This document shows positions 11,751 through 21,529 of a stretch of DNA of 64,000 bases, in pieces. The DNA is taken from assembly GCF_900111485.1 (NCBI RefSeq), contig NZ_FOIC01000009.1:1-64000 (forward strand), written 5' to 3'. A program made the position numbers and the translations under genes. The first letter of the stretch is position 1. Every line of letters begins with the position of its first letter. The notes below the pieces were generated by a model. It was not told the origin of the DNA, did no database searches, and was given only the letters and a program-made list of their open reading frames with translations. Source of the stretch: Natrinema hispanicum. Its GTDB lineage: Archaea > Halobacteriota > Halobacteria > Halobacteriales > Natrialbaceae.

Positions 11751-11868
11751 TGATACACTCTCGAGCGGTGGCCGGGAGCGGGCTCCGAGTAACGCGCGGA
11801 GCCCGCGACTCGGGGAAGGGCAGGCGTTTTACAGTATTTCACCGCGAGCGACCGTCGGGAGCGAGCGG
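11751..11868 (+). ncRNA. structured element, copy A (candidate ncRNA)
   Basis: The core is GCGGTGGCCGGGAG (11765-11778) and GGGGAAGGGCAGGCG (11812-11826). Between them, CGGGCTCCG (11779-11787) pairs perfectly with CGGAGCCCG (11797-11805) around the loop AGTAACGCG. CCGGG (11772-11776) can pair with CTCGG (11809-11813) using one G-U. After 14 variable nt comes a 27-nt helix (11842-11868) of alternating C-G pairs and tandem G-A/A-G steps. Copy B at 19.9-20.05 kb keeps all spacings while changing stem bases in a compensated way. It lies between convergent trmI and tfs. G-U pairs and G-A steps favour the plus strand as the RNA strand. Confidence 0.65.
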
Positions 11869-11908
11869 GCCGACGACCGACCCGCAGGGGAAGGAGGAGG
11901 CTTTTGAT

Positions 11909-11983
11909 CAACCTTTTACCGAAGGACATCGCGAGCGAGGCGCTGTGTGCCTCGCTCGCGATAGACTGCAGGGTAAAAGGTTG
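11909..11983 (-). terminator. long two-tier hairpin after tfs
   Basis: CAACCTTTTACC (11909-11920) pairs perfectly with GGTAAAAGGTTG (11972-11983). An inner 14-bp perfect stem, ATCGCGAGCGAGGC (11928-11941) with GCCTCGCTCGCGAT (11949-11962), closes a 7-nt loop. It abuts the tfs stop codon. On the minus strand it gives a T-run and a strong stem, suitable as the tfs terminator, and it would also block read-through from trmI. Confidence 0.7.
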
Positions 11984-12292
11984 TTAGTTGTCGTCCTCGC
12001 GCCACTTGTACTCGCATTCGGTACAGATGAAAAAGCGCGTCTCGGATTCGTCGGCCGAGCGGATCTGTTGCATATACCAGTAGGCGCGGTCGTTGCCACA
12101 CTCGGGACAGATGGCATCGGTTTCGGGCAGCGAGGTCTCCTCGGAGGACTCGATGATCTCGCTAGCTTCTTGGTCTTCGGTGAGCGTGTACTGGGCGGCG
12201 TCACCTTTCGGCTTCGTAAAGCCACAGCTGCCACACTCCCAGATGCCGTCGTCGGCTTTCATCATCGAACCGCATTCGTCGCAAAATTCCAT
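11984..12292 (-). CDS. tfs: transcription factor S
   Basis: A 102-residue protein with two zinc ribbons. The N-terminal ribbon has CDECG and CGSCG; the C-terminal ribbon has CPECG and CTEC. The C-terminal ribbon should carry the DE acid pair of TFIIS-type cleavage factors in its loop, and RSADESETRF has the D-E dipeptide at the right place. TFS stimulates RNA cleavage by backtracked archaeal RNA polymerase. The hairpin just after the stop is its likely terminator. Confidence 0.95.
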   Translation of the reverse strand: MEFCDECGSMMKADDGIWECGSCGFTKPKGDAAQYTLTEDQEASEIIESSEETSLPETDAICPECGNDRAYWYMQQIRSADESETRFFICTECEYKWREDDN

Positions 12293-12371
12293 CGTTGTCC
12301 GGGCTACGGGCGTCGAGTGACTTAAGGCACCCGTTTAGGGTTGCTGTGCGGCCTCCCGATTCGTAAGGCCT

Positions 12372-12626
12372 TCAGGCGTCGCCTTCCGACTGATACGGCT
12401 CCCCGACGGCTTCTCGCGGGAGGACGTTGTTCAGTTCCGTCCAGAGGTCCTCGACCGACTCGAAGCGGTCGCTGCCACTGCGTTCGATGAGTGCACCCAG
12501 ATTTCGCTCGCCGTCGGCCAGGAGGAGTGTGGTATCCTCGAGGGCGGCGGCCGCGCGGTCGGTCGTGATCGGGTACTCGAGGTCCGCGAGAGTGGTCTCG
12601 ATGCGGCTGAGTTTGACTGTTGGCAT
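12372..12626 (-). CDS. DUF5789-like haloarchaeal small protein
   Basis: An 84-residue protein starting MPTVKLSRIETTLADLEYP. The sequence TTDRAAAALEDTTLLLADGERNLGALI is followed by SFESVEDLW-like and LPREAVGEPYQSEG segments. The overall pattern resembles the DUF5789 family known from haloarchaea; the family assignment is from memory. No catalytic motif is visible. The start at 12626 is the first ATG of the conserved block. It stands alone next to the divergent MFS gene. Confidence 0.75.
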   Translation of the reverse strand: MPTVKLSRIETTLADLEYPITTDRAAAALEDTTLLLADGERNLGALIERSGSDRFESVEDLWTELNNVLPREAVGEPYQSEGDA

Positions 12627-12741
12627 GCGTAGAGAGACGCCATCCGGTGGCATGTACTTCTGCGACGGTTGCCCGTACTGTCGGCGGAACCGCGCTGATT
12701 CGTCGAAACTGTAATCGGGAGGGGGCACACAGCTAGGATCC

Positions 12742-14031
12742 ATGCGGAGTGTCCTCGAGCGGGTTATCGCGCCGTTTGCCGTGGATCGACGGATACTCGC
12801 ACTGGCGGGTGCCCGGATGGCAGACGGCATCGGCAACTCGTTTCTGATCATCGTTATTCCGCTGTATGTCACCAGCGGCATCGTCGGCGGGACGGCCTTC
12901 GGCCTCGGGGAGTCGCTGATTATCGGGTTGATCCTCTCGCTGTTTGGGTTTCTCAACAGCAGTTTCCAGCCGGTCACCGGGCGGCTGTCGGATCGGCTCG
13001 GTCGGCGCAAGCCCTTTATTCTGGTTGGGCTCGCCGGCCTTGCGCTGACGAATCTTGTCTACGTCTTCGCGGAGACGTACGTCTCACTGTTGGTTATTCG
13101 CGGCCTGCAGGGTGTCAGCGTCGCATTCATTATTCCCTCGTCGGTCGCGCTGGTCAACGAACTTGCCTCGAGTGGCGATCGTGGCGGGAATATGGGTGTC
13201 TACAACACCTTCCGGTTGGTCGGCTTCGGTGCCGGTCCTGCGGTCGCCGGTGCCGTCGTCAATCTCGGCCCGTATACGCTCCCCGGCGGAGTGACGATCA
13301 ATGGGTTCGACGCCGCGTTCTCTATCGCGACGGTCACGGCGACGATCAGCTACGTGCTGGTGACGGTGCTCGTCTCCGATCCCGAATCGACGGTGGCAAA
13401 CGCCGGTGCAGATCTCTCGATTCCGATCCGCGATCGGACGGGCCCGAACCTGCTCGATCCGATCTTTACGCTCGGCCTCGCGTCGTTTTTCATGGCCACC
13501 GGAATCGCGCTCTTTGCGACCATTCAACCCGAGGTCAACGCTCGGCTCGAGCAGGGCGCGACCTGGTTTGGCCTGCAGTTTGCGGCGTTTATCCTCGCGC
13601 AGGTCGCCCTCCAGACGCCGATCGGGCGAGCCTGCGATCGATACGGCCGCCGGCCCTTTATCGTCGGTGGGATGGTGTTGTTGATCCCGACGACGCTCGT
13701 TCAGGGATTCGTTCTCTCGTCGATACTCATGTTCGTCGCGCGGCTGTTTCAGGGCGTTGCGGCCGCGATGGTCTTTGCCCCGTCGCTTGCGCTGGCGGGC
13801 GATCTCGCCGGAAAAGGGGAATCGGGGTCGAAGCTCTCGGTGCTCACGATGGCCTTCGGCTACGGGATCGCTGCTGGCCCGCTCTCGTCGGGTGCGCTGG
13901 TCGGGTTCGGCTTCAGAGTGCCGTTCGTCTTCGGGTCCGTTCTCGCCGTCTTCGGGGCGATCCTGGTCTACACACAGGTCGAGGAAACGCTCGAGACGAC
14001 GGCCCCAGTGCCGGTTTTCGGCAGTGAGTGA
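12742..14031 (+). CDS. MFS transporter
   Basis: A 429-residue major facilitator superfamily protein with 12 predicted membrane helices. The loop-2 motif GRLSDRLGRRKPFILVG and its second-half counterpart GRACDRYGRRPFIVGG mark the two six-helix halves. The loop-4 region contains VIRGLQGVSVA and, in the second half, VARLFQGVAAAMVFAPS. This is the pattern of proton-linked exporters or drug/sugar permeases. Substrate cannot be told. The gene appears monocistronic. Confidence 0.9.
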   Translation: MRSVLERVIAPFAVDRRILALAGARMADGIGNSFLIIVIPLYVTSGIVGGTAFGLGESLIIGLILSLFGFLNSSFQPVTGRLSDRLGRRKPFILVGLAGLALTNLVYVFAETYVSLLVIRGLQGVSVAFIIPSSVALVNELASSGDRGGNMGVYNTFRLVGFGAGPAVAGAVVNLGPYTLPGGVTINGFDAAFSIATVTATISYVLVTVLVSDPESTVANAGADLSIPIRDRTGPNLLDPIFTLGLASFFMATGIALFATIQPEVNARLEQGATWFGLQFAAFILAQVALQTPIGRACDRYGRRPFIVGGMVLLIPTTLVQGFVLSSILMFVARLFQGVAAAMVFAPSLALAGDLAGKGESGSKLSVLTMAFGYGIAAGPLSSGALVGFGFRVPFVFGSVLAVFGAILVYTQVEETLETTAPVPVFGSE

Positions 14032-14085
14032 TCGGAACACGACGGGACGCAACGCAAAAGTAGCGGATACACATATGCTTCCACG

Positions 14086-14589
14086 ATGACGCTCTCGGAG
14101 GAGGCCACAGACCGGTTGGCGGACGTAGTGGAGCTACAGCCGACGAAGAACGCCGAGCTGCAGGAGCGCTGGGATATGGACAGTGGCAGCGAGGTCCACC
14201 AGTACTTGGAGAACGAACTCGGTGACTACTACTTTCGGGACGACAACAGCCTGATTCGGGCGACCGCCGAAGCGGCTGACCTAGTCGACGTCGAACCGGG
14301 CATCGAGAGCGATCCTGACGCCGACGGAATCCCCTCCAAAATCCGCGTCCCCGAGTTGCAAGCCCAGATCGTCGCGGTGTTGGCTGCCCCCGACGAGCGA
14401 TCCGAGAGCGTCGTCTCGGTGCTTCACAACCTTCGGGACGAATACGACGTCGACCCCGACGCCGAGGACGTCCGCTCGGGCCTCCAGAGTCTGCGCCGCA
14501 AGGGCGTCGTCGAGGTCGAGTACCGCACTGTTCCCACCTTCCGGCTGGCCGTCGAGCGCGACGACCTCGAGGTCGCCGTCGCCGAGTAA
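14086..14589 (+). CDS. DUF5797-like protein with winged-helix features
   Basis: A 167-residue acidic protein. MTLSEEATDRLADVVELQPTKNAELQERW opens it, a pattern I associate with haloarchaeal DUF5797. A second half (VVSVLHNLRDEYDVDPDAEDVRSGLQSLRRKGVVEVE) looks like a winged helix. No enzymatic motifs are seen. A TATA-like CACATATG lies near 14070. The family assignment is by memory. Confidence 0.75.
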   Translation: MTLSEEATDRLADVVELQPTKNAELQERWDMDSGSEVHQYLENELGDYYFRDDNSLIRATAEAADLVDVEPGIESDPDADGIPSKIRVPELQAQIVAVLAAPDERSESVVSVLHNLRDEYDVDPDAEDVRSGLQSLRRKGVVEVEYRTVPTFRLAVERDDLEVAVAE

Positions 14590-14622
14590 GTTCGTCACCT
14601 CCGATTGTGGCTGCCGGCTGCG

Positions 14623-15705
14623 TTACAGACCCGGCCGCCGACGGCGGCGACGCTCGGCGAGCAGTTGTTGGAGTCGTTTTCCGGGACCTCCTTCGATCGG
14701 CCAGCCGCGGGTCCGCCAGGTCGGCGGCTCGGGTTCGTAGTGAGCACAGGAACCGGCACACGCCGCGGCCGTCTGGCATCGATCCATGGCAGCACAGTAG
14801 GGCAGCGCCTGCTGGCCGTCTCGAGCGCGCAACTGGAAGTGCCGGCAGTCGGGACGCATGGGGTCGACAAAAGAGCGCCAGCCGCGCTCGTAGGCGCGTT
14901 CGGCGATCGCGAGCCGTGTGTCGGCTTTCGTCCCGGGATCGACGTACTCGAATCGGGCTGCCGATGCGTCGCGAGCGCCGCCGTCGGAGCGCTCGAGGAT
15001 CCGCGTCCCCGGTTCGTCGACCGCCAGCGTTCGGGGATACCAGGCGACCTCGGCGGTTAGGCTCTCGGGCTCGAGCGAGAGGATGCCCGCTTCGACCGGC
15101 AGGTCCTCGAAGAGCGCGGGCTCGACGGTGTCTCCTGTCGCCCGGGTTGCGACCCAGACCTCGTCGGCCAGTCCCATGGCGACGTCGTACGCGAGTTGTG
15201 AGCCGAGCGCGCGGGCGGCGCTGGCATCGAGGTCCGGTTTGTTCTCGATCGCGACGATCCGCTCGAGCCAGTCGGGATAGATCCACTTGCGGCGGATCTC
15301 GATTCGATTGCCGTTCTTTCGTGTCTCGATAATCTCGCGGTCGTCGGCGCGGTGGATCGCCTCGCGGACGTATCGCCACGGGTAGCCGGGGTGTGGGAGC
15401 GCGTCGCGGTAGTAGGCCCACTCGTCGGGGGCGTTTCGGACGATATGGAGGAGGTCGCTGTCGAGTCGGTCGGGACCGAATCGGGCGCGGCGACGGAGGG
15501 CATCGGGGTCACACTCGAGAACGATGGTATCCCAGCGTCGGCGTTTCGTGCCAAGCTGGCGGGCGACGATGATCGCGGTGCCGTCGCTGGTGGACGTGTC
15601 TCCTGGCGACCACGCCAGTTCGGCCCAGCGACAGGTCCGGAGCTCGAAGCCGAATTCGTGTCCGGGGTCGCGCTGCACTGTTCGCGATAGGGTCGGGACC
15701 GACAT
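14623..15705 (-). CDS. DUF5787-like haloarchaeal protein (nuclease-like)
   Basis: A 360-residue protein. The N-terminal part carries FELRTCRWAELAW and AIIVARQLGTKRRRWDTIVLEC. The middle has EIRRKWIYPDWLERIVAIENKPDLDA, an E-x-K-type strand seen in PD-(D/E)XK folds. The C-terminus has spaced cysteines (CRHFQL, CAAMDRC, CAGSC) ending in an Arg-rich tail. It matches the haloarchaeal DUF5787 pattern as I remember it. A nuclease role is only a guess from the E-x-K motif. It converges on the DUF5797-like gene. Confidence 0.75.
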   Translation of the reverse strand: MSVPTLSRTVQRDPGHEFGFELRTCRWAELAWSPGDTSTSDGTAIIVARQLGTKRRRWDTIVLECDPDALRRRARFGPDRLDSDLLHIVRNAPDEWAYYRDALPHPGYPWRYVREAIHRADDREIIETRKNGNRIEIRRKWIYPDWLERIVAIENKPDLDASAARALGSQLAYDVAMGLADEVWVATRATGDTVEPALFEDLPVEAGILSLEPESLTAEVAWYPRTLAVDEPGTRILERSDGGARDASAARFEYVDPGTKADTRLAIAERAYERGWRSFVDPMRPDCRHFQLRARDGQQALPYCAAMDRCQTAAACAGSCAHYEPEPPTWRTRGWPIEGGPGKRLQQLLAERRRRRRPGL

Positions 15706-15803
15706 GTGTACTACGGTGTGCTCATTTCGGTTTCGACGCGTCGCTGTCGGGATCGAGTCATCAACGAAACCGGAAGCGGCGTTCGACCGTAGTCGATCCG
15801 GCC

Positions 15804-16493
15804 TCAGAACGTGGTGGGTGTCGAAGTCGACCGCGACGTTTCGGTCGTGGTGGCTGTTACGAACGCATGGCCGAACATGCGGAAGATCGCGACGTTCGCA
15901 TAGAACCCAACGAACGGCACGAGTAACGCGCCGACAAGGGTAAATATCAGTGCCGAGTTGACGATCGTGAGCACGACGGCCACGGCCATCGGAAAGAGCG
16001 CCGCCAACAGATAGTCGGTGCTCAGCAGGACGGGCTTGATCGCGCTCATGTCGAACGCTGCGCTGATCGACCCTTCGCGAGCATAGTTGGTCAGCCCCGC
16101 GGGAACGATGTAGTAGATGAGCAGCATCAGTGGAATGTTTGCAAAGACTGTCATGAACCCAATACCGGCGATCAGCCCACCACCGTCACCGCTAAGCCCC
16201 ACCCCAACGCCGATCAAGCCGAATACGACCACCGAATAGATGACCGTCGGCACGATCGCATACGCCAGTCCGATGACCGTTCCGGCTAGACCCTTCACGA
16301 AGAGGTCGCCCCACTCAGTGAACTCCGGTGGGCTCTCGTCGCCGGCAACCGTCTTCTCGAGCACCCGGATCCAGTAGCCGGTCAAGAGAATCGCAGGAAA
16401 CAGCAACACTGAGAGGATTACGAGTCCGCCACCGATCAGTATCCGTCCGACCCAGTCGCCCCGAACTGGATATGAGAGTCCATCTTCTAACAT
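15804..16493 (-). CDS. DUF4013 membrane protein
   Basis: A 229-residue integral membrane protein starting MLEDGLSYPVRGDWVGRILIGG, with about six hydrophobic helices. The opening SYPxRGDWVGRxLIGG and the PPEFTEWGDLFVKG loop are typical of haloarchaeal DUF4013 proteins. The ATG at 16493 is used because the family block begins there. The Thr/Ser-rich tail is disordered. Function unknown. Confidence 0.85.
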   Translation of the reverse strand: MLEDGLSYPVRGDWVGRILIGGGLVILSVLLFPAILLTGYWIRVLEKTVAGDESPPEFTEWGDLFVKGLAGTVIGLAYAIVPTVIYSVVVFGLIGVGVGLSGDGGGLIAGIGFMTVFANIPLMLLIYYIVPAGLTNYAREGSISAAFDMSAIKPVLLSTDYLLAALFPMAVAVVLTIVNSALIFTLVGALLVPFVGFYANVAIFRMFGHAFVTATTTETSRSTSTPTTF

Positions 16494-16540
16494 GTCTCGT
16501 TCACAACCAGTGGACCCATTGACGATAAGAAACACTTTCG

Positions 16541-16693
16541 ATGAGAGGAGAGTACGGAGCGGTAGCGAGTTCCGTACTGATCAGTGACGTGGCTAATCAG
16601 CAGCGCTACTATCGGTGGTCCAATAAGGTTGCAACTGCGGACGACAGCGACGATCAGGACATCGACTTGTCCGATGTCGGCATCGTGGTCTGA
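16541..16693 (+). CDS. possible small ORF (50 residues)
   Basis: An ATG-initiated ORF encodes a 50-residue peptide containing VANQQRYYRWSNKVATADD and a very acidic tail DSDDQDIDLSDVGIVV. The acidity is haloarchaeal, but third-position GC is weak and no family is recognised. It occupies the 210-bp spacer between two minus-strand genes. It could equally be noncoding or a gene fragment. Confidence 0.25.
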   Translation: MRGEYGAVASSVLISDVANQQRYYRWSNKVATADDSDDQDIDLSDVGIVV

Positions 16694-16705
16694 GCCGTCG
16701 TCACC

Positions 16706-17140
16706 CTACTCTTCCTCGTCCTCGAGTTCGTCTAAGAACTCGTGGGCGTCCTCCAAGATCTCTCGTGGTCCGTCCTGCGTGACGGTGTTGATCGCCTGTT
16801 CGTAGTCGCGCCACTGGAGGTCGCGGTGTTCGTTTGAGAGTTCCGCGCTGGCCTCGAACGATTTCGCAATAAAGAGGTGAACGGTCTTGTGAATCGTCTT
16901 GCCGTTCGCCTCGAAGACGTAGTCGTAGTCCTTGCGAAAGCCGTCGAGTAACCGGAACTGTTCGATACCTGCCTCTTCCTTTACTTCGCGGATCGCCGTC
17001 TGCTGTAGCTCTTCATCTCCTTCGACACCGCCCTTGGGAAACTCCCAATCGCCTGGGCGGCTCTTGAGTAGAAGATACTCGCGCCGGCCCCGCGTATCGC
17101 GGAAGAGGATCGCGCCTGCGCTCGTAGCTTCGACTGCCAT
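16706..17140 (-). CDS. Nudix hydrolase, diadenosine tetraphosphatase type
   Basis: A 144-residue Nudix protein. The box GGVEGDEELQQTAIREVKEEAGI fits GX5EX7REUXEEXGU exactly (quoted in segments: GGVEGDEEL, REVKEEAGI). The preceding WEFPKG and the overall length match bis(5'-nucleosyl)-tetraphosphatases. The enzyme would hydrolyse Ap4A-type dinucleotides. The acidic C-terminus (DELEDEEE) is a salt-in adaptation. A single gene with its own spacer on both sides. Confidence 0.85.
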   Translation of the reverse strand: MAVEATSAGAILFRDTRGRREYLLLKSRPGDWEFPKGGVEGDEELQQTAIREVKEEAGIEQFRLLDGFRKDYDYVFEANGKTIHKTVHLFIAKSFEASAELSNEHRDLQWRDYEQAINTVTQDGPREILEDAHEFLDELEDEEE

Positions 17141-17327
17141 TAAGTAGGCTAACAGATGCGACGTTAAGAGAATATCGGACTGTTCGTCCAGCGTATGCTG
17201 ATTGTGGGCGTGATTTTCACGCCATCACCGGCCGATCGACCGCAGTCGTTCACCACGCCTGATCGGCATCGACCGATCTCAGCAACTTTTTACGCGCCCA
17301 CCGTCGACCTATTCGACAGCACCAGCC

Positions 17328-17663
17328 ATGACCTTCGTCACCCGTCTGACGCTCCAGAGCGGCGATCGAGCCGCACTCGATGGTATCGTCGAGGACATCA
17401 AAACCACCGCCGAGCGAAAGGGCGCAGCGCTCAAAGGCCCCCACTCGCGTCCGCCGGAGCGACTCTCGGTTCCCCAGCGCTGCCGACTCCACGCCGACGA
17501 CGATCGGCGGTTCTCCTCGTGGGACTACACTGTCTTCACTCGTGAACTCGAGATTCACGGCCACGACAATCTCGCACGAAACATCGCCTCGCAGAACTTC
17601 CCCGATTCGGTCCATATCGAGGCCGAAGTCGAACAGATCCACGGCGCTGGCCGCGGAAACTGA
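17328..17663 (+). CDS. uS10-like ribosomal protein paralogue
   Basis: A 111-residue protein of the uS10 fold: LTLQSGDRAALDGIVEDIKTT, then KGPHSRPPERLSVPQ with the family loop, then YTVFTRELEIHGHDNLARNIA. The canonical archaeal rpsJ normally lies next to EF1A; this copy stands alone near an M20 hydrolase. It is therefore likely the extra uS10 found in haloarchaea, either an alternative ribosomal subunit or an RNA-binding derivative. A TATA-like TTTTTAC lies about 40 bp upstream. Confidence 0.85.
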   Translation: MTFVTRLTLQSGDRAALDGIVEDIKTTAERKGAALKGPHSRPPERLSVPQRCRLHADDDRRFSSWDYTVFTRELEIHGHDNLARNIASQNFPDSVHIEAEVEQIHGAGRGN

Positions 17664-17728
17664 TCACAGTTTTGCGTCGTGACGAGATCGCCGCCAGAGC
17701 TTTTTATTAGTCTCGCAGAGAGTGTACC

Positions 17729-19012
17729 ATGACCGCGGACGACCTCGTAACCCTCCGGCGAGACCTGCATCAGCGGCCAGAACCTGCCTGGCGCGAATTC
17801 TATACGACTGCACGGATCGTCGACGAACTCGAGTCGCGACTCGGCGACGACCTCGACCAGCTTTTCGTCGGCCCCGAGGCGATTGCTGGCGACCACCGGC
17901 TGGCGGTCCCCGACGATGCGGAGCTAACTCGCTGGTACGAGCAGGCCCAAGAGTCGGATGTTGATGCTGCCACGCTCGAGCGACTCGAAGGCGGCTACAC
18001 GGGTGCCGTCGCGGTCATCGAACGCGGCGAGGGGCCGACCGTCGGCCTGCGCGTCGACATCGACGGCCTCCCACGACCCGAATCCGAGGAACTGAGTCAC
18101 AAGCCCGCCGCAGCCGGCTTTCGCTCCGAACACGACGGCGCGATGCACGCCTGCGGCCACGACGCCCACGCGACGATCGGGATCGGCGTCCTCGAGCGGA
18201 TCGCCGACGACAGCGACTTTGCAGGCACCCTGAAGGTGTTCTTCCAGCCCGCCGAGGAGGTCGTCGGCGGCGGCAAGTCGATGGCCGAAAGCGAGTACAT
18301 CCAAGACGTCGACTCCCTGCTCGCGATGCACATCGGGCTCGACCACCCGACCGGCGAAATTGTCGCAGGGATCGACGGCTTTCTTGCGGTCTCGCATCTC
18401 GAGGCCGCGTTCACGGGCGAATCGGCTCACGCCGGCGGCCACCCCGAACAGGGACGCAACGCCGTGCAGGCGATGGCGACGGCCGTCCAGAACCTCTATG
18501 CTATCCCACGGCACAACGACGGCAAAACGCGGGTCAACGCGGGCGTCGTCGAGGGCGGTAGCGCCGCCAACGTCATCCCCGACGAGGCCCGCATCGTCGC
18601 CGAAGTGCGCGGCGAAACGACAGAACTGATGGAGTACATGAAACACCGAGCCGAGCAGGTGCTCCGGAGTGCCGCCGAGATGCACGACTGTGAGGTGTCG
18701 GTCGAGACCGGTGCCGAAGCACCCAGCGCGAGAAGTGACGACGACCTCGTTTCGACCGTCGCCGACGTGGCCGGCGAGACGGCGGGCGTCGAGCGCGTCC
18801 TCGAGCGCGACGAACTCGGCGGCAGCGAGGACGCGACCTACCTGATGCGGGCGGTCCAGGAACGCGGCGGTAGCGCCTGTTACGTCGGTGTCGGCACCGA
18901 CCACCCTGGCGGCCACCACACTGCGACGTTCGACGTCGACGAAGCGAGCATCGGCCACGGGATCGACGTGCTGGCCGGGGCGATCGAGCGGGTCAGCAGC
19001 GAGCAGCGCTGA
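17729..19012 (+). CDS. M20-family amidohydrolase
   Basis: A 427-residue enzyme of the HipO/AbgB/IAA-amino-acid hydrolase type. The metal cysteine-histidine motif MHACGHDAHATIG is present, as are the catalytic glutamate pair in FFQPAEEVVGGG and a dimerisation domain opened by GESAHAGGHPEQGRNAV. A DLHQRPEPAWREF start is typical. It should hydrolyse an N-acyl or amide-linked amino acid derivative in the cytoplasm. It differs from the dapE-type M20 at 1-2 kb in using a Cys metal ligand. Natural substrate unknown. Confidence 0.88.
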   Translation: MTADDLVTLRRDLHQRPEPAWREFYTTARIVDELESRLGDDLDQLFVGPEAIAGDHRLAVPDDAELTRWYEQAQESDVDAATLERLEGGYTGAVAVIERGEGPTVGLRVDIDGLPRPESEELSHKPAAAGFRSEHDGAMHACGHDAHATIGIGVLERIADDSDFAGTLKVFFQPAEEVVGGGKSMAESEYIQDVDSLLAMHIGLDHPTGEIVAGIDGFLAVSHLEAAFTGESAHAGGHPEQGRNAVQAMATAVQNLYAIPRHNDGKTRVNAGVVEGGSAANVIPDEARIVAEVRGETTELMEYMKHRAEQVLRSAAEMHDCEVSVETGAEAPSARSDDDLVSTVADVAGETAGVERVLERDELGGSEDATYLMRAVQERGGSACYVGVGTDHPGGHHTATFDVDEASIGHGIDVLAGAIERVSSEQR

Positions 19013-19039
19013 CCAGCCGCTCGAGCCGCTATCGCTCGG

Positions 19040-19819
19040 TTAGGCGTCCATCACGACCTCGAGGTCGAACGGCGCGTCGGCGGGGGCCGATTCGGGCTCG
19101 AGGTAGCCGACCGCGAAGGCGGTGTAGACGCTGCCGGCTTCTGGTGCCACGTCGAAGGTCGCGACCACGTCGCCGTCGTTGGTTTCGGTCGCCGGTCGGA
19201 CCTCGAGCGTGTAGTCCCCGCCGGGGACTTCGGTCGCCGCTGCCTCGCCATAGGCCACGTCGTCGAACAAGACCGTCTCGCCGTCACCAACCGTGACATC
19301 GACAGCGGGTGCGTCCGGCGAGGCATGCACAAGGCGGACGCGTGCGTTGTCACCCGGGTCGCTGAGATCGTCTTCGAGAACTGTCGGTGCAAACGGCTGG
19401 TTCGTCTCACTCAGTTCGCCAAGCGCCGCAATGGTGAATGCCCCGTCCGTGAGCTCGAGGTCGTCCTCGAACACGACCGTCTCAGGGTCACCTGCAGCCG
19501 TGATCATCACTGTGTAGGTGCCCGGCGCGAGCTCGAGGAAGTCGCTGACGTCCCGGTAGGGGACGTCCTCGAGGACCGTGTCGCCGTCTATGAACACGTC
19601 GACGTTCGGCGCGTCCGGCGAGAGGTGCGCGACGCGGACGTTCGCCATTGTCTCGTCGCTTCCGCCGCTCTCGTCCATCTCGTCGTCGTTCATCTCCCCT
19701 TCCGACCCGTTGCCCATCTCGCCGCCGTCGTCACTCCCACCCATACAGCCGGCAAGTGCGATCCCGCCCGCAGTTCCGATCAGTGTCAGTGCGCGTCGGC
19801 GTGTGTGGATTCGTGCCAT
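19040..19819 (-). CDS. Tat lipoprotein with two DUF4397 repeats
   Basis: A 259-residue exported protein. The N-terminus MARIHTRRRALTLIG is a twin-arginine signal and the lipobox LAGC follows. An acidic Gly/Asp/Glu linker leads to two tandem DUF4397 units, recognisable as VRVAHLSPDAPNVDVFIDG and VRLVHASPDAPAVDVTVGDG. The protein should be anchored on the outer face of the membrane. I start at the ATG 19819 because the Tat motif follows immediately. Role unknown; DUF4397 occurs in cell-surface proteins. Confidence 0.9.
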   Translation of the reverse strand: MARIHTRRRALTLIGTAGGIALAGCMGGSDDGGEMGNGSEGEMNDDEMDESGGSDETMANVRVAHLSPDAPNVDVFIDGDTVLEDVPYRDVSDFLELAPGTYTVMITAAGDPETVVFEDDLELTDGAFTIAALGELSETNQPFAPTVLEDDLSDPGDNARVRLVHASPDAPAVDVTVGDGETVLFDDVAYGEAAATEVPGGDYTLEVRPATETNDGDVVATFDVAPEAGSVYTAFAVGYLEPESAPADAPFDLEVVMDA

Positions 19820-19884
19820 GCTTCCAGGTACTTGATGGGTAGGAAAGACGAAAATCCCTAACAACGTAGGGGTATTTTCACACG

Positions 19885-19892
19885 AATTTATA
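19885..19892 (+). promoter_or_regulatory. TATA box upstream of structured element copy B
   Basis: AATTTATA preceded by CACG lies about 30 bp before the first paired bases of copy B at 19921-19932. The motif is near-symmetric and could also serve the minus-strand DUF4397 gene, whose ATG is about 70 bp away. Confidence 0.45.
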
Positions 19893-19920
19893 ACTCACCG
19901 ACCAGTAATATCGTCTTACT

Positions 19921-20056
19921 CGGATGTAGCCGTCTCGAGCAAGCGGTGGCCGGGAGGATGGCTCGAGCAACGCGAGAGCCGTCCGACCCGGGGAAGGGCA
20001 GGCGGCTACCCAATTCCGACCGCGAGCGACCAACGGGAGCGAGCGGCCTTTTTTGG
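19921..20056 (+). ncRNA. structured element, copy B (candidate ncRNA)
   Basis: It has the same core as copy A: GCGGTGGCCGGGAG (19943-19956) and GGGGAAGGGCAGGCG (19990-20004). The stem arms GATGGCTCG (19957-19965) and AGAGCCGTC (19975-19983) differ from copy A at most positions yet still pair, around loop AGCAACGCG. CCGGG (19950-19954) pairs fully with CCCGG. An outer stem GTAGCCG (19926-19932) with CGGCTAC (20003-20009) closes it. The 27-nt helix with tandem G-A steps is at 20020-20046, again 14 nt on. A run of six T (20049-20054) follows and could end the RNA. A TATA box lies in front. Confidence 0.7.
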
Positions 20057-20062
20057 TCGAGA

Positions 20063-20117
20063 TTTTTTGCCCGGGTTCGAGCGCGGCCGATAGCCGCGCG
20101 AGGGCTCGGGTAAAAAA
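20063..20117 (-). terminator. hairpin after the reductase gene
   Basis: TTTTTTGCCCG (20063-20073) can pair with CGGGTAAAAAA (20107-20117) with one G-U. GCGCGGC (20081-20087) pairs with GCCGCGC (20093-20099) around a 5-nt loop. It lies just beyond the stop codon of the minus-strand reductase gene. It has the same place and two-tier form as the hairpin after tfs, though the sequence differs. Confidence 0.6.
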
Positions 20118-20125
20118 GGTCGGTT

Positions 20126-21529
20126 CTAGTATTTGGGCTCTGCCCCAGTCGTCTCGTAGACCTGCTCCATAATGTCGTCACGGCGTTGCTGCCAGTGCTC
20201 GAGTGCAGCGGGATGGTGGGGATACCCTTCGTAGAGCTCGAGGAGGTCGTCGGCCCGGCGTTTGGTCTGGAAGAGCGTCCAGATCGTCCCCCAGTGGCCA
20301 CGACTGTTGAGCAGACTCTCCGCGGCGAGTTTCGGGCCGATGCTCGTACTGCCCGAATACAGTGCCTCCGCGAGTTTCTCGCCGGGCATCGCGGCGAGCA
20401 GCCCCATCAGGTCGTCGACGTCGACGGCCGTCGAGAGGATGTTGTAGACGTCCAGCGCAGCGTACCGTGCGCCGAAGTGGTCCATAACGCGCTCGTTGTA
20501 CTCCCAGAGGGCTTTCTCGCTGACGTCGCCGGTCTCGAGCGCCTCGATTGCGGCCTCACCGGCGTACTTGCCGCCGTAGGCAGCACCGGCGATCCCGCCG
20601 CCGGTCGTGGGGTTGACGTGGCCGGCAGCGTCACCGATAGCCATGTATCCCGGATGAACGGCCGAGTCGTAGGGTCGTCGGGTGGGGAGGGCTGCGCCGA
20701 GTTTGTCCTCGACCTCGGCATCCCGGAACTCGGGGCGGGTCTCGAGATCGCGTTTGAGATCGTCGACGAGCTTCATCGGTTCCTCGGTCATCTGGAAGCC
20801 CAGGCCAGCGTTAATCTCCGTCTCCGTGCGTGGGAAATACCAGAGGTAGCCTGCGGCCCGTTCGGTCGGCTTGAAGACGAGCGCGTCGTCCCACTCGACC
20901 GGTTCGTCGACGTGGACGATCTCGCGGTAGGCAGAACAGAAGTGGGTGTAGTTAACGTTCGTGTCGAACGAGGAGGCCGAGAAGTCGACGTGATCCTGGA
21001 GGACGGACAGCGAGCCCGCGGCGTCGATGACGATGTCAGCCTCGTAGGTGCGCGGATCGCCCGCGCGGATCGCTTCGACGCCAGTGACGCGGCCGTCGTC
21101 ATCCTGCAGGACGTTTTTGACGACGGTGTCATAATGAAAGTCGACGCCGACGTCGTCGGCCCCGTCGATGATCCGGCGGCCGTACTCCCAGCGGTCGATG
21201 ACTGCCAGTTCGCCGGGGATCGGGATCTCGAGGACGGTATCTTCCTGTGGGATCTCGAAGCGACCGTGATCGACGTCCGTATTCGTAAACGCGGGCTCGA
21301 GTTTCGACTTCGGAATCGCCTCGGGGAAGCTGTCGGCACCCTTCAGTGCGTCGCCGCAGGCGATGTGGCCTGCTTCGGATTCGGGCTTTCGCTCGAGAAT
21401 GACAACGTCGTACCCCTCCCGTGCGATGGTCGCTGCGGCGTAGCACCCTGCGGTTCCGGCACCGACGACGACCACGTCCGGCGACTGCGTCTTCGGCGTC
21501 GTGGCGGCCGACTGCTCCTGCGTACTCAT
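20126..21529 (-). CDS. geranylgeranyl reductase-family FAD enzyme
   Basis: A 467-residue flavoprotein. The FAD-binding motif VVVVGAGTAGCYAA is at about residues 19-33. ACGDALKG and the late FAD motif YMAIGDAAGHVNPTTGGGI match the geranylgeranyl/digeranylgeranylglycerophospholipid reductase family. These enzymes saturate isoprenoid double bonds, in archaea those of membrane lipids or the menaquinone side chain. Several paralogues are usual in haloarchaea, so the exact substrate is open. A divergent 2Fe-2S ferredoxin gene begins about 155 bp away and could be its electron donor. Confidence 0.88.
   Translation of the reverse strand: MSTQEQSAATTPKTQSPDVVVVGAGTAGCYAAATIAREGYDVVILERKPESEAGHIACGDALKGADSFPEAIPKSKLEPAFTNTDVDHGRFEIPQEDTVLEIPIPGELAVIDRWEYGRRIIDGADDVGVDFHYDTVVKNVLQDDDGRVTGVEAIRAGDPRTYEADIVIDAAGSLSVLQDHVDFSASSFDTNVNYTHFCSAYREIVHVDEPVEWDDALVFKPTERAAGYLWYFPRTETEINAGLGFQMTEEPMKLVDDLKRDLETRPEFRDAEVEDKLGAALPTRRPYDSAVHPGYMAIGDAAGHVNPTTGGGIAGAAYGGKYAGEAAIEALETGDVSEKALWEYNERVMDHFGARYAALDVYNILSTAVDVDDLMGLLAAMPGEKLAEALYSGSTSIGPKLAAESLLNSRGHWGTIWTLFQTKRRADDLLELYEGYPHHPAALEHWQQRRDDIMEQVYETTGAEPKY

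Follow-up and report, generated by a model that had tools for sequence, protein, structure and literature searches.

The two copies of a structured element in the 64-kb stretch of DNA analysed here (the window) belong to a previously uncatalogued family of modular, non-coding structured repeats of haloarchaea. Its conserved core is a 65-nt domain, D1, which usually heads a longer unit, D1-D2-D3-D4. The best reading of the sequences is that this dispersed repeat may have been kept as a transcription-boundary RNA at the 3' ends of genes, a guess to which we give a probability of roughly 0.4. The element is a large, deeply conserved structure in one of the best-studied archaeal groups, and it offers a testable system for two questions: how transcripts of converging genes are kept apart in archaea, and how a repeat that disperses comes to serve a host function.

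Copies in the window

Copies A and B start at positions 11765 and 19943, where the first-pass annotation had placed them, and agree with its description base for base. The block GCGGTGGCCGGGAG was found at 11765 and 19943 and the block GGGGAAGGGCAGGCG at 11812 and 19990, with no third exact match of either in the 64-kb window, and the spacing of the blocks is identical in the two copies, as claimed. The stems, CGGGCTCCG/CGGAGCCCG and GATGGCTCG/AGAGCCGTC, were also correctly described: both bases differ at pairs 1, 2, 5, 6 and 7, T-G occupies pair 3 and G-A pair 9. The pairing of this stem stands, but its length of 9 bp does not, since the stem continues outwards with another G-C pair and a helix (CCGGG/CYCGG). 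In most homologues pair 9 and the next position form a tandem G-A/A-G step; a GC/GC stem lies above it and closes a loop of 3-4 nt.

Using cmsearch, copies A and B scored 88.3 and 88.1 bits (E about 6e-20), both being among the five copies from which the scoring model was built; the next-best match in the window reached only 11.7 bits, and the window holds just two copies. A recent duplication was ruled out, as A and B are 81% identical and no closer to each other than to the genome's other loci.

In copy A, on the + strand, D1 (11765..11825) consists of UGG, helix P1 (CCGGG/CUCGG), an A/GA internal loop, helix P2 (9-10 bp, an A-G step, GU/GC and an AAC loop) and the tail GGAAGGGCAGGC. D2 (11842..11868) reads CCGCGAGCGA-CCGTCGG-GAGCGAGCGG, with tandem G-A alternating with Watson-Crick steps and with covarying pairs d2a.11/d2b.2 and d2a.8/d2b.5. 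D3 (11867..11905; GGGCCGACGACCGACCCGCAGGGGAAGGAGGAGGCTTTT) has covarying seg4/seg5 pairs and a T tract at its end, and is followed by the D4 hairpin (11906..11983), whose arms are CAACCTTTTACC (11909-11920) and GGTAAAAGGTTG (11972-11983). The final base of D4 is the base preceding the stop codon of a convergent gene for transcription factor S (TFS; 11984..12292, - strand; TIGR01384 above cut-off).

In copy B, likewise on the + strand, P2 of D1 (19943..20003) is GGATGGCTC/GAGCCGTCC with tandem GA/AG, GC/GC and an AAC loop, and D2 (20020..20046) is CCGCGAGCGACCAACGGGAGCGAGCGG. D3 is reduced in this copy, a CCTTTTTTG tract (20047..20055) lying immediately 3' of D2. A D4-like hairpin (20058..20122) with 30-nt arms, 73% complementary, stops 3 nt short of the stop codon of a convergent gene for a geranylgeranyl reductase family protein (GGR; 20126..21529, - strand; TIGR02032 above cut-off).

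Structure of the D1 core

Throughout the family D1 is composed of UGG, P1 (CCGGG/CYCGG), an A/GA internal loop, P2 and the invariant tail GGRAGGGCAGGC, P2 having a variable part that is usually followed by the tandem G-A step and the GC/GC stem under its short loop. About 30 nearly invariant positions surround the variable helices, among them four GG tracts (model positions 8-9, 52-53, 57-58 and 61-62). The tandem G-A step is without a 3-nt bulge, and a kink-turn was rejected. A coding origin was also rejected, since stem length and sequence vary freely among copies and no gene was called across the element.

When the two conserved blocks were searched for with a free interior, three relatives proved to carry the element, and in each of them a stem is formed by the interior, with a sequence that mostly differs. 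Based on 83 distinct copies, 96.8% of the D1 pair cells are standard, and 202 cells are changed on both sides, against a mean of 50 when shuffled and at most 21 when slid. The covariation score was 0.490, compared with 0.191 shuffled and at most 0.075 slid. Because copies found by a model lean towards that model, the pairing test was repeated on copies chosen by their loops alone (62 copies, 42 different arms), in which own arms were paired at 92.3% and exchanged arms at 66.6%. The conserved structure with compensatory evolution that had been proposed from two copies is thereby confirmed, covariation exceeding chance and relatedness; homologues with no covariation in the stem, the contrary case named by the first-pass annotation, did not appear.

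In four partly overlapping sets the ratios of G-U to A-C in D1 were 75:13, 80:11, 22:5 and 21:1, the last in copies picked by loops only. G-U thus lies far above A-C, which shows that in D1 it is the + strand, lying antisense to the convergent gene, that folds on its own, in agreement with the strand first proposed. The same counts led to the rejection, for D1, of a structure on the opposite strand, in the 3' UTR of the convergent gene. The folded strand could be RNA or single-stranded DNA, and the original argument that only an RNA shows compensated changes was too strong, since hairpins recognised as single-stranded DNA can show them too.

The longer unit

The first-pass annotation described only the front of the unit. 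Unsupervised mutual information in 86 copies recovered the D1 helix and three further helices. These are D2 (CCGCGAGCGA...GAGCGAGCGG), in which Watson-Crick steps alternate with G-A pairs, D3 (GCCGACGACYGAYSTG...CGGAGGGAGGAGTGCTTTT) and D4, with the consensus NATCnnnnTTTTRCCGAGGG...GCAGNGYAAAAnnnnG. D4 is a near-perfect inverted repeat which starts at the stop codon and has T tracts on both strands. The pairs of D2-D4 are nearly all Watson-Crick with almost no G-U, and the folding-strand bias is absent there. Near-absence of G-U is expected of a DNA-level inverted repeat, which D2-D4 may be, and this counts against a boundary RNA, as does the separability of D1: units of D2-D4 occur without it, also on Natrialbaceae plasmids.

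Position at gene ends

Of 140 non-identical copies, 115 are followed by a convergent gene, an arrangement found in 39% of background gaps (200-700 nt), and the gene upstream of the copies runs either way. In 93 of the 95 copies that could be scored, a distance of 0-8 nt separates the end of the D4 arm from the stop codon of the convergent gene, a placement that is precise to a few bases and involves more than 17 gene families; genes were called by a codon-usage script, whose starts may be off by a few codons and whose stops are firm. Boundary genes include those for TFS (copy A), GGR (copy B), ribosomal protein L16/L10e, EngB, the regulator TbsP, phosphomevalonate decarboxylase and, by a weaker match, aCPSF1, the archaeal termination ribonuclease. 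The main exception is S6e, which has the element on its 5' side; these copies, 5' of their downstream gene, speak against a boundary role. At one locus (L037) a D1 copy is closely followed, at about 150-270 nt, by a candidate gene for RNase P RNA with a GAGGAAAGTCC box.

T4 tracts were located no more than 160 nt downstream in 113 of 143 copies and upstream in 34. At the sequence level the units therefore carry the features of a terminator, a hairpin and a T tract after the stop codon. In Haloferax, intergenic transcripts terminate at T stretches, and many termination sites have a hairpin on their upstream side (PMC7237163). The units resemble such haloarchaeal terminators in having T tracts and hairpins after genes, from the stop codon on, and differ from them in D1, which lies on the antisense side and whose size, conserved fold and fixed loop sequence go far beyond the needs of a terminator. 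Stop-codon position, the T tracts of D3 and D4 and this precedent together make the boundary role the best single guess.

According to this proposal, units in the window's family would by now be fixed as boundary elements at the 3' ends of conserved genes. RNA polymerase approaching the boundary gene from outside, in the antisense direction, would transcribe D1-D2-D3, and the nascent + strand RNA would fold into the P1/P2 hairpin with its invariant G-rich tail and then into the D2 and D3 hairpins. The T tracts of D3 and D4 would stop transcription ahead of the gene, and D4 would end the boundary gene's own transcript from the opposite side. The invariant loops of D1 are probably the binding site for a protein or part of a tertiary fold, and a quadruplex of two layers might be built from its four GG tracts, the cytoplasm of haloarchaea being rich in potassium. 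The boundary role stays a guess because promoters are not evident, because units in another family look mobile, and because transcription itself is something that we infer. TATA-like sites were found upstream of only 12 of 144 copies on the + strand, with no dedicated promoter signature seen in this set, and the source of a transcript is puzzling where the upstream gene runs the other way.

The missing promoter signature also weighs on a second RNA reading, in which the copies form a trans-acting small RNA family, each being the gene for an RNA of ~110-150 nt that ends in a hairpin/T-tract terminator and shares D1 as the core to which protein or RNA binds. The loops, invariant on freely varying stems, the folding of the + strand, the hairpin and T tract downstream and the many paralogues per genome would suit such genes. 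This reading leaves the abutment of D4 on the stop codons of the same convergent genes unexplained, and we consider it unlikely. Less probable again is that D1 is a metabolite-binding aptamer or small ribozyme controlling or cleaving read-through RNA at gene ends. The nearly invariant positions round variable helices and the four GG tracts are consistent with it, and several boundary genes encode transcription or translation proteins, including aCPSF1 and TFS; the boundary genes are nevertheless many and unrelated, with no common pathway, and the element matches no Rfam family and is not placed upstream of the genes of one pathway, as riboswitches usually are.

Distribution and inheritance

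The covariance-model search of haloarchaea proposed in the first-pass annotation revealed a widespread element. A first model, R1, was built from five copies, and its refinement, R2, identified the element in 88 of 242 Halobacteria genomes and 33 of 73 genera, at 0 to about 56 copies per genome and usually 5-17 in Natrialbaceae. Carriers include Natrinema, Haloterrigena, Natronococcus, Natronorubrum, Halopiger, Halostagnicola, Halobiforma and Natrarchaeobius, as well as Haloglomus, Salinibaculum and Halosimplex. With R1, most genomes of the window's genus had 6-17 copies, and the window's own genome had 10 at E <= 0.001 and 12 at a threshold of 0.1.

Between species of the genus, D1 identity at the same locus is 0.853, compared with 0.717 between loci of one genome, which shows that there is no concerted evolution. 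Within the genus, copies stay at fixed loci by vertical inheritance, and compensatory stem changes have accumulated there: among changed pairs, by pairwise counts that are not independent events, 127 are doubly compensated, 138 are one-sided and still paired, and 49 are broken. Compensation in place implies that the fold matters at fixed loci and not only during movement. Across genera, same-locus identity (69.5%) is no higher than that between different loci, reflecting either saturation or independent arrival.

At the TFS locus decay was observed, genome G003 being without the unit and other genomes retaining only D4 or D2-D4. Copies are few or absent in some genomes of the genus, which, together with the TFS gene of G003, shows the element to be dispensable, a further point against a boundary role. 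The coexistence of copy-rich, copy-poor and empty genomes in one genus makes the system suitable for following a repeat into a function. Four genomes of this genus (G003, G022, G023 and G017) have 0-5 copies against 6-17 in their sisters, which suggests wholesale loss, perhaps alongside loss of a partner protein.

Dispersal in another family

As many as 56 and 32 copies were found in two distant genomes, G169 and G193, both outside the window's family (in f4). Here the copies are randomly oriented relative to genes and mostly without T4 tracts, which is at odds with a boundary role. Aligned copies from G169 reveal a near-palindromic unit of ~450 nt (inverted D4, degenerate inverted D1, centre, D1, D4) with inverted ends (GAAAGCCCTCGG.../...CCGAGGGCTTTC); terminal inverted repeats were not found around copies A and B. 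An inserted and an empty site were seen at rnp4-yhbY, where the gap is 730 nt in G169, with the unit inside, versus 77 nt in its congener G086, and is also short in other members of the family of G169. Within G169, 23 copy pairs are at least 95% identical. The first-pass annotation had opposed a mobile DNA repeat to an RNA. Its description of a mobile repeat applies in part, since the core in f4 forms part of an inserted unit that is near-palindromic and MITE-like and some of whose copies are near-identical.

These observations, with the D2-D4 units on plasmids and the precedent of the PATEs of Haloquadratum (PMC3119063), favour the main rival to a boundary RNA. D1 would then serve as the hairpin by which a non-autonomous mobile element of a MITE-, PATE- or REPIN-like kind is recognised, one strand folding as single-stranded DNA during transposition, and the Natrialbaceae copies would be ancient remnants with a single arm, to which the same machinery still binds. 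Such an origin of the fold is possible but doubtful. Loci in the genus are fixed, vertically inherited and compensated in place, and neither a target duplication nor an autonomous partner or parent transposon was found, the insertion having indistinct ends. Y1 transposases do not track copy number, being absent from the copy-rich G006 and G193 and present in the copy-poor G003 and G023, and no D1 occurs at Y1 loci; a Y1 transposase as the mover is thus unsupported. A viral origin was rejected after no match was obtained in viral contigs or phage records.

The two readings could be joined: haloarchaea would then possess a structured RNA of a new class, in which a two-layer G-quadruplex that depends on potassium caps a hairpin. 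It would be placed at gene ends to stop antisense transcription, possibly be read by aCPSF1, and double as the core of a mobile repeat. The aCPSF1 gene itself carries a weak copy of the element at its 3' end. As a whole this combination seems improbable; were it true, a selfish element would have been caught becoming a transcription boundary.

Comparison with known families

No Rfam 15 family was found at the gathering threshold in the whole window, and a relaxed threshold at ten loci gave only weak matches, all outside the element, so that, as before, no named RNA family could be assigned. Covarying helices round invariant loops are nevertheless shared with Rfam structured-RNA motifs. A search for tRNA or tmRNA identity gave nothing, and no named haloarchaeal element of this kind was found in the literature.

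Among mobile repeats, MITEs are similar in being short, dispersed, without an ORF and, as in the f4 genomes, with inverted ends; for the present element no parent transposon or target duplication was found, and the genus copies described here are single-arm and vertically inherited. The REP/REPIN (BIME) repeats of bacteria, which are associated with RAYT transposases, are extragenic, often beyond gene ends, and form imperfect hairpins as singlets and inverted doublets. The present element shares these traits, but has a larger core with about 30 fixed bases and no Y1 transposase in copy-rich genomes. The PATEs and SMRs known from Haloquadratum walsbyi are likewise haloarchaeal, non-coding, multi-copy, hairpin-rich and modular (PMC3119063). 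PATEs have IS605-like near-terminal palindromes and no terminal inverted repeats (PMC3119063), whereas f4 units have inverted ends; in contrast to PATEs, Y1 transposases here do not follow copy number, and the genus copies are fixed with stem compensation.

Variation of the unit

Extra hairpins are inserted at fixed spots of the unit. These modules have their own conserved linkers (CCGAGCATCGCGG..CCGCTCAACGG, CTAAGCGG..CCGCGAGGTC) and occur at the same points of the unit, like nested elements, in D1 at L181, L183, L187, L068 and L089 and in D4 at L063, L064, L065 and L091. In D4 (e.g. 11906-11920 of the window) bases 1 and 8 of NATCnnnNTTTT vary together and stay complementary (G-C, C-G, A-T), although they do not pair with each other in the nested hairpin.

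Units of D2-D4 without D1 were identified in the window's own genome at C49:1587, C54:122506, C58:118359, C68:68564 and C68:158565, and also at L343, a plasmid copy in which D1 is replaced by TTAGTACAGGCGGAGAAGTGTA, resembling the GTACAG of the conserved left flank of G169 units. A second type of D4 (TGAAAGGGCGAG..CGAGGGCTTTC) adjoins the aCPSF1 gene at its 3' end, both in the window's own genome and in another family (L069, L048), and is the type found in G169 units.
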